Origin: Nodosilinea sp. FACHB-141
GTDB lineage: Bacteria; Cyanobacteriota; Cyanobacteriia; Phormidesmidales; Phormidesmidaceae
Length of the DNA stretch: 64,000 nucleotides
Assembly: GCF_014696135.1 (NCBI RefSeq)
Contig: NZ_JACJPP010000021.1
Coordinates: forward strand, 186,001-250,000
Reading direction: 5' to 3'
Shown: positions 24,486-29,294 of the stretch, one piece after another
How the letters are laid out: each line of letters opens with the position of its first letter
Numbering within the stretch: the stretch's first letter is position 1
The notes under the pieces: generated by a model
Databases searched by the model: none
Told to the model about the DNA's origin: nothing
The model's input: only the letters and a program-made list of their open reading frames with translations
Translations under genes and position numbers: made by a program

Positions 24486-24914
24486 ATGCTCCACCATGCG
24501 TCCATTCGCACCCAGGATATTCACCGCGCGATCGCCTTCTACGAAGCCTTAGGGTTTACTGTCCACGAACGCTTTACCGCTGGCATCACCCTGGCCTGCT
24601 GGATGGAGGGTCTGGGGGGCCGCATTGAGCTAATTCAGGTGCCGGAGCCCCGCCCCGCCGCCGATGCCTTTGGCGATGAGCACTACAGTGGCTATTATCA
24701 TCTATCCTTTGATCTCACCGAGGCGACCTCTAGCCTGCCCTTGTGGCTAGAGGAGCTGCGCCAGCGGTTTGAGCAAGCGGCGGCGATGCCCAAGGTGCTG
24801 CTGGAACCCCAGCAGCAAATCATTGGCGATCGCGTCTATGAGGTGGCCTTTCTCGCCGATGCCGACGGACTGCCTTTGGAATTTATTCGAGTGCTGGGCT
24901 ATGTCCAACCCTGA
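24486..24914 (+). CDS. VOC superfamily (glyoxalase-like) protein
   Basis: Product of 142 aa with two beta-alpha-beta-beta-beta modules. The first opens LHHASIRTQDIHRAIAFYEALGF, and the second contains YHLSFDL and ends VAFLADADGLPLEFIRVL. Candidate metal ligands are His3/His4, Glu and the C-terminal Glu. Substrate unknown. It follows the TIGR02652 gene by 20 bases and overlaps or abuts the AAA gene, suggesting one operon. Confidence 0.85.
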   Translation: MLHHASIRTQDIHRAIAFYEALGFTVHERFTAGITLACWMEGLGGRIELIQVPEPRPAADAFGDEHYSGYYHLSFDLTEATSSLPLWLEELRQRFEQAAAMPKVLLEPQQQIIGDRVYEVAFLADADGLPLEFIRVLGYVQP

Positions 24915-24933
24915 GGGGCCTAATTTTGAGAGA

Positions 24934-26388
24934 ATGACCCCATTTACCGACAACTGGGCCTATCTAAAAACCGAGCTGGCCTGGCTCGATCGCCTGCTGA
25001 TGGTGGCCGTATCGCGGCAAAAGCGCGAGCTGCAAGAGCTGGACGACTTTGCCTTGTCTGGCGAAGACCGAGTCACCCGCCACTGGTGGAAGGGCATTAT
25101 TAGCCTCAATGGCCAGCCCAACTACGACAATGCTCGCCCGCCTAAGACCCAGCGCCCCAGCGGCAGCTATGCCCAACAGCTAGAGGCCCGCATTCTGGCC
25201 AGCCAGCGGCAGGGGGTGGTGCTGGCCCTGCCTCAGTTGCGCGATCGACTCCAGCTCACCATGTTTGAAAAAAACGTGCTGCTGCTGGCCCTGGCTCCTG
25301 AGGTCAACCAACGGTTTGGGCGGCTCTACAGCTATCTGCACTACCAGCACGACGAGTCTGACTGGGATTTGCCCACGGTCGACCTGTGCCTGCGGCTGCT
25401 GTGCAGAAATGACCAGGAATGGAGGCGATCGCGCCCCCTGATCGCCCCCAACAGTCGCCTGTCAAACCTGGGTCTGGTGGAGTGGCTCAACGCCGAAGAC
25501 ACTACCCTGCTCAGCCGCCACCTGCGCCTGACCGAAGATCTCACCACCTATCTACTCTCCGAAGAACCCGACCCCGCCACCCTTAATGCCTGGGCCATGG
25601 CCCCCGCCCTAGAGGCGGAGGAAGCCTCAGAAGTTCCGGCTGAAAGCTGGAATAGCCTAGTGCTGCCCGACCCTCAGCTGGCCCAGCTAAAAACCGTGGC
25701 CGCCGCCGCCCGCGCCACCGACGGCACTATGGTGCTACTGGCTGGCCCCAACGGCACCGGCAAAACCCTCGCCGCTAAGGTGCTAGCCGCCGAGCTAGAA
25801 CTGCTGCTGGTGATGGTTGATCTGGCGGCGATCGCCCCCGACGAAGAGGGCAACATTCCCGAACTCGAAGACCTGGTTAACCTGCCGCCCTGCGTGTTGC
25901 TGCTCAAAAATGCGCCCCACTGGTTTGGTCGCAACCCCACCATCGAAGCCGCTTTGGTGCAGTCGTGGGGCATTCAGCGTCGCCGCCAGCCGGGGTTGAC
26001 GCTCCTAGCCAGCCCCTACCTGCAAAGCATCAAACCCTCTTGGCGACAGGCCATGACCGGGGTAATCGAGTTTCCTCGACCCGATGCTGCCGCCCGCGAA
26101 CTGTTGTGGAAGCGAGCTATCCCTAGGGGTGTCAAAAAAGAACGTACCCTGCGATGGCCGCAGATTGCTCAGCAGCTGCCGCTAACCGGCGGTGAAATTG
26201 TTACCCTAGCTCAGACTGCCGTTGCTCTAGCCCAACAAGCTGACCCCCCAGTGCTGACGGTAGAGGGGCTGCACCAGAGCCTAGCCTTGCACCACCCAAG
26301 CATGAACCTGCCCAAAACAAAGGCGGCGCGATCGCCCAAGACCGACCCTAAAAAGCCAGCGCAACAGACCAAGTCCAAAAAAGCGTAG
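24934..26388 (+). CDS. AAA ATPase-like protein with degenerate Walker B
   Basis: Product of 484 aa from the ATG at 24934; a start at 24901 would overlap the VOC gene by 14 bases. The N-terminal 200 residues resemble the winged-helix region of stand-alone AAA proteins also found with contractile injection systems (LTMFEKNVLLLALAPEVNQRFGRLY). Walker A is intact (GPNGTGKT, 271-278). Where Walker B Asp-Glu should be, the sequence reads LLLKNAPHWFGR, with Lys325-Asn326. Sensor 1 and the arginine-finger region also look altered (ASPYLQS, WRQAM). It may bind but not hydrolyse ATP. The tail is Lys/Pro-rich. Confidence 0.85.
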   Translation: MTPFTDNWAYLKTELAWLDRLLMVAVSRQKRELQELDDFALSGEDRVTRHWWKGIISLNGQPNYDNARPPKTQRPSGSYAQQLEARILASQRQGVVLALPQLRDRLQLTMFEKNVLLLALAPEVNQRFGRLYSYLHYQHDESDWDLPTVDLCLRLLCRNDQEWRRSRPLIAPNSRLSNLGLVEWLNAEDTTLLSRHLRLTEDLTTYLLSEEPDPATLNAWAMAPALEAEEASEVPAESWNSLVLPDPQLAQLKTVAAAARATDGTMVLLAGPNGTGKTLAAKVLAAELELLLVMVDLAAIAPDEEGNIPELEDLVNLPPCVLLLKNAPHWFGRNPTIEAALVQSWGIQRRRQPGLTLLASPYLQSIKPSWRQAMTGVIEFPRPDAAARELLWKRAIPRGVKKERTLRWPQIAQQLPLTGGEIVTLAQTAVALAQQADPPVLTVEGLHQSLALHHPSMNLPKTKAARSPKTDPKKPAQQTKSKKA

Positions 26389-27417: not shown

Positions 27418-27517
27418 GTTGCTTCAATCCAGCACTGGCCACTTTAGGTTAGTACAGTCGTAAATTCTTGAAGTTGGTCTGGTAACGCCAGTCACCAGCC
27501 CAATCGAGCTTCATTAA

Positions 27518-27567
27518 GCACCCCGCCTGTAGGCTACTTTGAGAAGCCTACAGGCGGGGTGCTTTTT
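27518..27567 (+). terminator. Strong rho-independent terminator after dps
   Basis: Arms 27518-27535 and 27545-27562 are an 18-base-pair perfect stem (GCACCCCGCC...GGCGGGGTGC) with a 9-base loop, followed by TTTTT. Confidence 0.95.
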
Positions 27568-27653: not shown

Positions 27654-29294
27654 ATGCCCACCGTCACCTTTCCCCTCACCTACCTGCAACGGCTCACCTC
27701 CACCGCCCCAGAGCAGCTAGCCCAGCAGGCCTTTGACTATGGCCTAGACGCCACCCTAGGCGAGCACACCCTAGAGGTCGAAGTCACTGCCGAGCGGCCC
27801 GACCTGCTAGCGGCAGAAGGGTTTACCCGCGCCATCAACATCTATAACGGCCTACCCCGAACTGTCCCCAACCAGCTGCTCGCTTCGGGTCGTCGAGTCA
27901 CCGTACGACCTGAGGTGTTGCCCCTACGGCCCCACATTGCTGCCTTAGTTGTGCGAGGGGCTGACCTGCAAGGTGGCGGGCTAGAGGTGCTGGTGCAGTT
28001 TCAGGAGAAGGTGACTCAAACCTTTGGCCGCCAGCGAAAGAAAATTGCGATCGGCGTCTACGACCTCGACAAAATCAGCGGCGACTTAACCTACGCAGCA
28101 GAATCGCTGGATCAGCTGACCTTTGTGCCCCTGCACAGCACCCAACCCATGACGGCCCGGCAAATTCTGCACGAGCACCCTGCGGGTAAGACCTATGGCC
28201 ATACCCTGTCGGGAAATGACTATGCTCTCGTGCTGCGCGATGCCAGCGGCACCGTACTCTCCATGCCGCCCATCATCAACGCAGCGGGGGTAGGAGAAGT
28301 GGATGCCAACACCCGCAATCTATTCATCGACGTCACCGGCATTTTGGCTCAGACGGTGCTGGAGACCGCCAATATTCTGACCCACAACTTTTTAGATACC
28401 GGGGCTGAGGTGCAGACGGTGGAGATTGTCACTCCCCAGGGCACTCTCACCACCCCAAGCCTGGCCCACCGCTCCGTTCAGTTTTCGGCCAAGTATCTCA
28501 ACGAAATTATGGGCACCGCTATTCCTAAGAGCGGCCTGGGTCAAGTGCTCTCTCGCATGGACCTAGAGGTGAGCGGTACCGATGTGGTGCATGTGCCCAC
28601 CTATCGCACCGACATCTTTAGCCAAGTCGATTTGGCGGGGGATTTACTAGTGGCGATCGGCATCGGTACGCTTCAGGCCGAGCCCCTAGCGGTCAAATTT
28701 CATCTGGGGGAAGCCGACGCTTTACGCCAGGCGATGTTTAAGGTGGGCGACTTGGCCCAGCGCATGGGGCTGATGGAGGTGAAGAGTTTTGTGCTTACCG
28801 ATCCCGAAATTCTCGATTTGTTTGGGGCTTCTTATGTACAGACGGGCAACGCCAAAAGCCGCACGTTTAGCGCCACCCGCACCACCCTGCAAGCGGGGCT
28901 GCTAGATATTCTGGCCCGCAACATCAACGCGCCCAAACCTATCAATATTTATGAAACTGGGGAAGTGCTGCGGTTCAAGACGGCAAATGCCCCTGACGAA
29001 AGCCAGCACTGGAGCTTTGCCAGCCTAGATGCCCGCGCCTCGTTTACTACCGCCAAAGCCTACATGCAGACCATGCTCAAAGCCCTAGGGTTGAGCTATG
29101 AATTGACTACCTGCCACGCCCCCTACTACCTCCCCGGGCGGGCAGCGACGGTACTGATTAATGGCCAACCCGTCGGGGAGTTTGGCGAAATTCATCCCCA
29201 GGTGCTTGAGCACTTTTCGTTCCCTGAGCCGGTCTGCGCTGGGGAGCTAGACTGTACCGCTGGCCTGCTCGCGGCTTCTGAGCGGCGGCGTTGA
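27654..29294 (+). CDS. Archaeal/eukaryotic-type phenylalanyl-tRNA synthetase beta-like protein (orphan)
   Basis: Product of 546 aa. It matches the short archaeal/eukaryal PheT plan rather than the roughly 800-aa bacterial one: there is no N-terminal EMAP/tRNA-binding or C-terminal anticodon domain. An N-terminal segment with ERPDLLAAEGFTRAI leads into a B3/B4 editing-like domain (LVQFQEKVTQTFGRQRKKIAIGVYDLDKI, PPIINAAGVGEVDANTRNLFIDVTG). A B5-like domain follows (VPTYRTDIFSQVDLAGDLLVAIG, where the usual acidic ED reads GD), then a catalytic-like beta core ending GEFGEIHPQVLEHF. No pheS is nearby. The start is preceded by a C/T-rich tract. Function uncertain. Confidence 0.85.
   Translation: MPTVTFPLTYLQRLTSTAPEQLAQQAFDYGLDATLGEHTLEVEVTAERPDLLAAEGFTRAINIYNGLPRTVPNQLLASGRRVTVRPEVLPLRPHIAALVVRGADLQGGGLEVLVQFQEKVTQTFGRQRKKIAIGVYDLDKISGDLTYAAESLDQLTFVPLHSTQPMTARQILHEHPAGKTYGHTLSGNDYALVLRDASGTVLSMPPIINAAGVGEVDANTRNLFIDVTGILAQTVLETANILTHNFLDTGAEVQTVEIVTPQGTLTTPSLAHRSVQFSAKYLNEIMGTAIPKSGLGQVLSRMDLEVSGTDVVHVPTYRTDIFSQVDLAGDLLVAIGIGTLQAEPLAVKFHLGEADALRQAMFKVGDLAQRMGLMEVKSFVLTDPEILDLFGASYVQTGNAKSRTFSATRTTLQAGLLDILARNINAPKPINIYETGEVLRFKTANAPDESQHWSFASLDARASFTTAKAYMQTMLKALGLSYELTTCHAPYYLPGRAATVLINGQPVGEFGEIHPQVLEHFSFPEPVCAGELDCTAGLLAASERRR

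Follow-up and report, generated by a model that had tools for sequence, protein, structure and literature searches.

The 64,000-nucleotide window analyzed here (positions 186,001 to 250,000 of contig NZ_JACJPP010000021.1 of the cyanobacterium Nodosilinea sp. FACHB-141) contains, on the plus strand, a pheT-like gene for a beta subunit of phenylalanyl-tRNA synthetase (PheRS) of the archaeal/eukaryotic type (hereafter AE-type). The open reading frame (27654..29294) starts with an ATG at 27654, its stop codon ends at 29294, and the product is 546 amino acids (aa) long. Pfam recognizes a B5 domain (PF03484, aa 275-336, 28476..28661, plus strand; 44.1 bits) and a catalytic-like module (CLM; PF17759, aa 354-533, 28713..29252, plus strand; 122.8 bits), both over their cut-offs, along with two sub-threshold domains, a B3/4 editing domain (PF03483, aa 113-240, 27990..28373, plus strand; 24.6 bits, cut-off 29.3) and a B1 domain (22.7 bits, cut-off 26.8); none of the bacterial-only C-terminal domains is reported by Pfam. 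The NCBIfam model TIGR00471 (pheT_arch) matches residues 1-534 along positions 1-547 of its 551 with 345.1 bits (cut-off 282.65), so that the domain plan claimed for this protein in the initial annotation is borne out. The bacterial model TIGR00472 covers residues 271-536 only, with 121.3 bits, and misses its cut-off of 402.65; the protein thus falls outside the bacterial PheT family, the members of which are about 800 aa long and pass this cut-off. In a sequence search of the Protein Data Bank (PDB), human FARSB is the top match (180 bits), followed by a P. horikoshii fragment (165 bits). Structures were predicted with AlphaFold for the alpha and beta subunits separately, as single chains. 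The beta model is of moderate confidence (mean pLDDT 74.5, pTM 0.59); a fold search with this model returns the beta chains of 8s8b, human 3l4g and P. vivax at the top, with TM-scores near 0.55 when normalized to the query; normalized to its own length, the P. horikoshii fragment fits best (0.86). Judged by its sequence, the window protein is a full-length beta subunit of an AE-type PheRS.

The neighbors of the gene in the window include no pheS, as the initial annotation had stated. Its description of the gene as an orphan was wrong, given an unlinked AE-type pheS in the same genome and the presence of alpha genes in nearly all beta carriers of the order (see below). The source genome (G000; 5.92 Mb in 31 contigs) encodes two PheS proteins, a bacterial one at C22:124051 and an AE-type one at C12:127220-128671, on the minus strand and outside the window. 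The latter frame is 483 aa long from a TTG, or 481 aa from an ATG located two codons further in; it matches NF003210 over residues 9-481 with 413.9 bits (cut-off 350) and fits what is expected of the alpha subunit of an AE-type PheRS, namely some 500 aa and an extended N terminus, whereas the bacterial PheS of the same genome reaches 225 bits on this model, short of the cut-off. The best PDB match of the AE-type alpha subunit is human FARSA (286 bits), and a fold search with its model (mean pLDDT 75.5, pTM 0.48) puts the human alpha chain first. The long bacterial PheT anticipated by the initial annotation is encoded at C11:186210-188645. Because the AE-type alpha and beta genes and the bacterial PheS and PheT genes are all found, the cell possesses two full sets of genes for a heterodimeric PheRS. 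The initial annotation had also reasoned that the gene would simply encode the housekeeping enzyme if a matching pheS were found and no other pheT existed; a matching pheS is indeed present, but so is a complete bacterial PheRS.

Among the 63 genomes of the order, 31 encode the AE-type beta subunit and 30 encode the alpha subunit, all of the latter within the 31 beta carriers and none among the 32 non-carriers; some of these matches are fragments at contig ends. The sole beta carrier without alpha is G413, which is 86% complete. In the genus-level group of the window (g1), the AE-type beta subunit is present in 26 of 26 genomes, the alpha subunit in 25 and bacterial PheT in all 26, while the beta proteins differ from one another by up to about 35%. 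The carriers in the order outside this group are G386, G394, G430, G433 and G443. Of the 63 genomes, 60 yield a bacterial PheT and 62 a bacterial PheS; all 31 carriers are among the latter and 30 of them among the former. On a broader scale, 388 genomes were sampled across the class, and 34 of them encode the AE-type alpha subunit, 29 in the order and five outside it (G598, G613, G695, G718 and G733). Across the phylum, 386 genomes were sampled, and only the window's own passes the TIGR00471 cut-off; there are 57 further matches below the cut-off, and those listed mostly cover the C-terminal half in long frames, like bacterial PheT. Plasmid records yielded eight matches, all with less than 60% identity and less than 60% coverage and none of them archaeal-type, and viral contigs yielded no match. 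Contamination was rejected because 31 of the 63 genomes examined in the order have the beta gene, the window's contig is 327 kb long and the flanking genes are conserved in close relatives. A third PheS-like protein, the PheS-related mystery ligase SrmL (NF051887, 500.6 bits, cut-off 300), is encoded at L184:1339-2559 in G396, a relative that lacks the AE-type PheRS.

This distribution bears on the possibility that a replacement is in progress, in which the AE-type PheRS would be a redundant housekeeping enzyme and either of the two enzymes could be lost. There is a precedent in spirochaetes (PMC3191353), and the patchy presence in the class (alpha in 34 of 388 genomes) and the phylum (beta over the cut-off in one of 386) is of the kind that such a process might leave. 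Both enzymes, however, persist across g1, the beta proteins of which diverge as stated above; G386, the only carrier with no match for bacterial PheT (in an assembly of 910 contigs), retains bacterial PheS; and where the editing-domain motifs of bacterial PheT were examined, in 10 carriers and 11 non-carriers, they appear to be intact. Replacement in progress fits poorly with such long coexistence, and we consider it quite unlikely. The apparently intact motifs in the same genomes also led us to reject degenerate bacterial editing as the reason for a helper enzyme.

The placement of the genes was compared in 17 genomes, in 16 of which both AE-type genes could be placed. In five of the 16 (G443, G613, G695, G718 and G733), pheT comes directly after pheS at a distance of roughly 20 to 260 bases; the remaining 11 have the two genes on separate contigs or far from each other. 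In G598, pheS alone is seen within the 17 kb examined; next to it, L250:5680-7542 encodes a protein of 621 aa that weakly matches MzaE, an AIPR protein associated with MZA anti-phage systems (67.6 bits, cut-off 1050). Since the adjacent pair occurs in several families, the pheS-pheT operon is probably the older state that was split later in the window's own, Nodosilinea-like lineage. Pairwise distances of the alpha and beta subunits are correlated (r = 0.956); the 120 pairs behind this value are related by common descent and not independent of one another.

Both AE-type subunits are under purifying selection: compared with the window's genes, dN/dS ranges from 0.055 to 0.094 for beta and from 0.046 to 0.085 for alpha (10 pairs each). 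The constraint on both is looser than that on bacterial PheS, for which the values are 0 to 0.035 (nine pairs). The initial annotation had offered two readings that start from a lone beta gene, namely a protein repurposed for editing or RNA binding and a remnant of a transfer. The absence of a pheS beside pheT in the window would agree with both. The matching alpha subunit in G000 and in 30 of 31 carriers, the adjacent gene pairs in five of 16 genomes and the low dN/dS, far under 1 for both subunits, argue against them, as does the invariance of the editing positions described below; we regard both as highly improbable.

The catalytic motifs and the phenylalanine pocket of the alpha subunit are intact as far as the residues checked go. 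The motif AWGLGLER is present in the 16 cyanobacterial alpha rows of the alignment, the human H327 position is Gln in one of 34 alpha rows, and the equivalents of human T329, R358, Q372, E374, N410, Y412, E414 and F438 are kept in 34 of 34, where we take T329, R358, Q372, E374 and E414 to be phenylalanine-binding residues. PMC3275996 places N410, Y412 and F438 of human PheRS in the phenylalanine pocket and contrasts the Asn410/Tyr412 pocket of the human cytosolic enzyme with Phe258/Phe260 in Thermus.

In the beta subunit, residues L194, S203, N209, D226 and T228 align with P. horikoshii L202, S211, N217, D234 and T236. All five are the same in every one of 29 cyanobacterial rows and in all 16 rows of a second, overlapping set, which also covers three genomes from beyond the order (G613, G695 and G733), so that the editing-site check proposed in the initial annotation favors an intact site. 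We take L202, S211, D234 and T236 to be editing-site positions and yeast D243 to be the equivalent of D234. The remaining one, N217/N238, is described as an editing-site residue in PMC3275996, and a yeast D243A strain is editing-deficient (PMC4066437).

The alteration of the B5 acidic pair noticed in the initial annotation is confirmed by the alignment: aa 329-330 of the window protein are G-D, whereas human and P. horikoshii proteins have E-D. Codon 329 (Gly) is at 28638..28640 on the plus strand. Archaeal rows (n=33) have Glu in 26 cases, Asp in six and a gap in one at this position. The B5 acidic cluster presumably provides the ligands of a Mg2+ ion shared with the alpha subunit, as we take it from UniProt/HAMAP. 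The D..D..ED form of the cluster, which is common and not required by the curated model, is absent from the window protein, where Gly occupies the third acidic position; the protein still passes the TIGR00471 cut-off.

Phylogenetic analysis of the alpha subunit was based on the catalytic domain (53 rows, 304 columns), with 16 cyanobacterial, four eukaryotic and 32 archaeal rows; the beta tree has 47 rows, two of them eukaryotic. The beta tree is a PheT phylogeny of the kind proposed in the initial annotation; neither tree includes spirochaete, Asgard or TACK sequences or a broad set of eukaryotes. In the alpha tree, the cyanobacterial rows form one clade (100/100) that groups with the four eukaryotic rows at 95/79, a node that is not starred. 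This group is located in a clade with four of the 32 archaeal rows (100/98), with the NPYTEPS pocket in common; 30 of the archaeal loci are the best-scoring ones from 147 genomes of one phylum, so that four of 32 is not a rate. The test does not reject an alternative in which the cyanobacteria group with L147, one of the archaeal rows (p-AU 0.117). The beta tree agrees, with cyanobacteria and the two eukaryotic rows joined at 91/80 (likewise not starred), but the program flags a meeting of long branches there. Thus, the AE-type alpha subunit appears to belong to a eukaryote-like branch of the archaeal/eukaryotic type, outside the few eukaryotes sampled. A eukaryotic donor was considered and tentatively set aside, the cyanobacterial rows not being nested within the four (alpha) or two (beta) rows of a thin eukaryotic sample. 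Separately, we observe that four loci (L113, L136, L137 and L147), from genomes placed within or close to the Nanoarchaeota phylum, encode an archaeal PheS with the eukaryote-like signature NPYTEPS...NSGxFRPE, whereas the other 28 of the 32 archaeal rows show variants like FPFTEPS/GGAGIFRPE.

Taken together, we consider it fairly probable that the AE-type PheRS is a horizontally acquired, working second enzyme that the cell retains, in addition to its bacterial PheRS, as a conditional isoenzyme. Under this scenario, a pheS-pheT pair would have entered cyanobacteria by horizontal transfer as a unit, and its two genes would have been separated later in the Nodosilinea-like lineage. The foreign beta subunit is predicted, on sequence grounds, to assemble with its own foreign alpha subunit and to charge the U20-bearing tRNA-Phe of the cell with phenylalanine, and the enzyme probably proofreads Tyr-tRNA-Phe in its own B3/B4 site. 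The two enzymes would be retained, we infer, because conditions arise in which the bacterial one fails. One such condition could follow from the pocket, in that Asn/Tyr instead of Phe/Phe might confer a different tolerance of phenylalanine analogues or PheRS inhibitors, by functional analogy with IleRS2 and mupirocin; we know of no inhibitor that would fit such a role. A role in protection against meta-tyrosine is less likely because m-Tyr-tRNA is edited poorly by yeast cytosolic PheRS (PMC4066437) and by the human enzyme (PMC3275996), and these reports speak against any version of the isoenzyme reading that invokes oxidised phenylalanine.

Several observations weigh against a conditional isoenzyme. 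Neither a condition nor an inhibitor or regulator came to light, the neighbors differ between genomes, and the upstream regions, inspected by eye, show no common motif. The AE-type alpha subunit is constrained more weakly than bacterial PheS (dN/dS up to 0.085 versus 0.035), and the positions of human T326 and S332 are Ala and Thr, respectively, in 34 of 34 alpha rows. Gly329 of the B5 cluster is found in all 29 and all 16 rows of the two overlapping cyanobacterial sets. Finally, the only tRNA-Phe found carries U20 instead of G20, which is listed in both the archaeal and the eukaryotic PheRS determinant sets, U20 being bacterial (PMC9976931 Table 1), and PheRS-tRNA pairs of the archaeal/eukaryotic and bacterial types are reported in PMC3275996 not to cross-react. 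The search of G000 with RF00005 produced 41 matches (150 of 197 candidates scored), which were then run through ARAGORN; one is a tRNA-Phe, so that a second tRNA-Phe serving the second enzyme was rejected. This tRNA has G34-A35-A36, A73, C13-G22, U45 and U20, and also lacks U59 and C10-G25 of the bacterial list. Given U20 and the reported lack of cross-reaction, either the AE-type PheRS is relaxed in its need for G20 or this tRNA-Phe is a poor substrate.

The latter option is part of another explanation, namely that the AE-type PheRS is a specialised, non-housekeeping enzyme that acts on another amino acid or another tRNA, or provides an aminoacyl-tRNA for a side pathway. The U20 in the sole tRNA-Phe, the clade-specific Gly in the B5 acidic cluster and the fact that a bacterial PheRS is always or nearly always present as well are in line with this possibility. 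Nevertheless, the residues of the phenylalanine pocket and the editing site are those of a phenylalanine enzyme; the tRNA-Phe possesses the remaining archaeal determinants of PMC9976931 (A73, G34-A35-A36 and C13-G22); and no partner pathway is seen beside the genes in the neighborhoods compared, none having been searched for elsewhere. We therefore judge a specialised enzyme to be unlikely. Returning to the conditional isoenzyme, its parts can be joined into a single picture that we hold to be less probable than not: PheRS of two domains of life would act on one tRNA-Phe, the foreign one being re-tuned, with no need for G20 and a changed alpha-beta metal site, and serving as a second phenylalanine checkpoint that resists a natural inhibitor or analogue aimed at the bacterial pocket.

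The genes next to pheT in the window encode Dps-like, HflK/stomatin-like and glyoxalase I-like proteins. These neighbors are common to close relatives and differ in more distant ones, so that there is no fixed cluster pointing to a function; among the neighbors that were named and those that were mapped, the latter mostly unnamed, no producer or resistance cluster was recognized. A terminator-like GC-rich hairpin followed by a T run, identified by eye, is located between the dps-like gene and pheT (27516..27567, plus strand); a hairpin scan limited to loops of 3-8 bases did not list it, and several close relatives have hairpins with other letters in the same place. Because this hairpin precedes it, pheT is probably transcribed separately from the dps-like gene; a promoter scan found none. 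Further upstream, at 24769-26388, a gene conserved in the same place in close relatives encodes an AAA+-like ATPase with a weak match to the NCBIfam model of IteA, an anti-phage ATPase (29.6 bits, cut-off 510).

The PheRS class is known, as is archaeal PheRS in bacteria, from spirochaetes and as a replacement; in searches limited to open-licence papers, we found no description of both PheRS types coexisting stably in one bacterial lineage. In the present case, they occur side by side throughout g1, and the genome examined for tRNAs yielded a single tRNA-Phe, a situation that provides a natural test of whether an AE-type PheRS needs G20 in its tRNA and of why cells retain two synthetases for one amino acid. 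If the resistance reading is true, it would point to a natural inhibitor of bacterial PheRS, and the AE-type enzyme may be a starting point for orthogonal charging of phenylalanine analogues.

Compared with characterized systems, the closest likeness is to human and other eukaryotic cytosolic PheRS (FARSA/FARSB; PDB 3l4g, 8s8b), which provide the best PDB matches of both cyanobacterial subunits in sequence and fold and share the domain plan, the editing-site residues and, in the alpha subunit, the NPYTEPS pocket with the equivalents of Asn410, Tyr412 and Phe438. The cyanobacterial enzyme differs from them in its low identity (about 26% for beta and 35% for alpha), the bacterial host with a full bacterial PheRS, the Glu to Gly change in B5 and the U20 tRNA-Phe. 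In spirochaetes (Spirochaeta, Borrelia and Treponema), compared here by description only, from PMC3191353, both subunits were likewise gained together by bacteria, but there the archaeal PheRS took the place of the bacterial enzyme and clusters with Thermococcales, whereas in cyanobacteria the two enzymes coexist and the alpha pocket is eukaryote-like. IleRS2 is a eukaryote-like synthetase that occurs beside the bacterial one in some bacteria and has low sensitivity to mupirocin, according to PMC4861432; unlike the PheRS described here, it is specific for a different amino acid and consists of a single polypeptide. Two threonyl-tRNA synthetases with different roles for one amino acid, T1 and T2, are reported from a cyanobacterium (PMC4787780); they are described as an early duplication, and T2 is impaired in editing, whereas the second PheRS is of the archaeal/eukaryotic type and keeps its editing residues.
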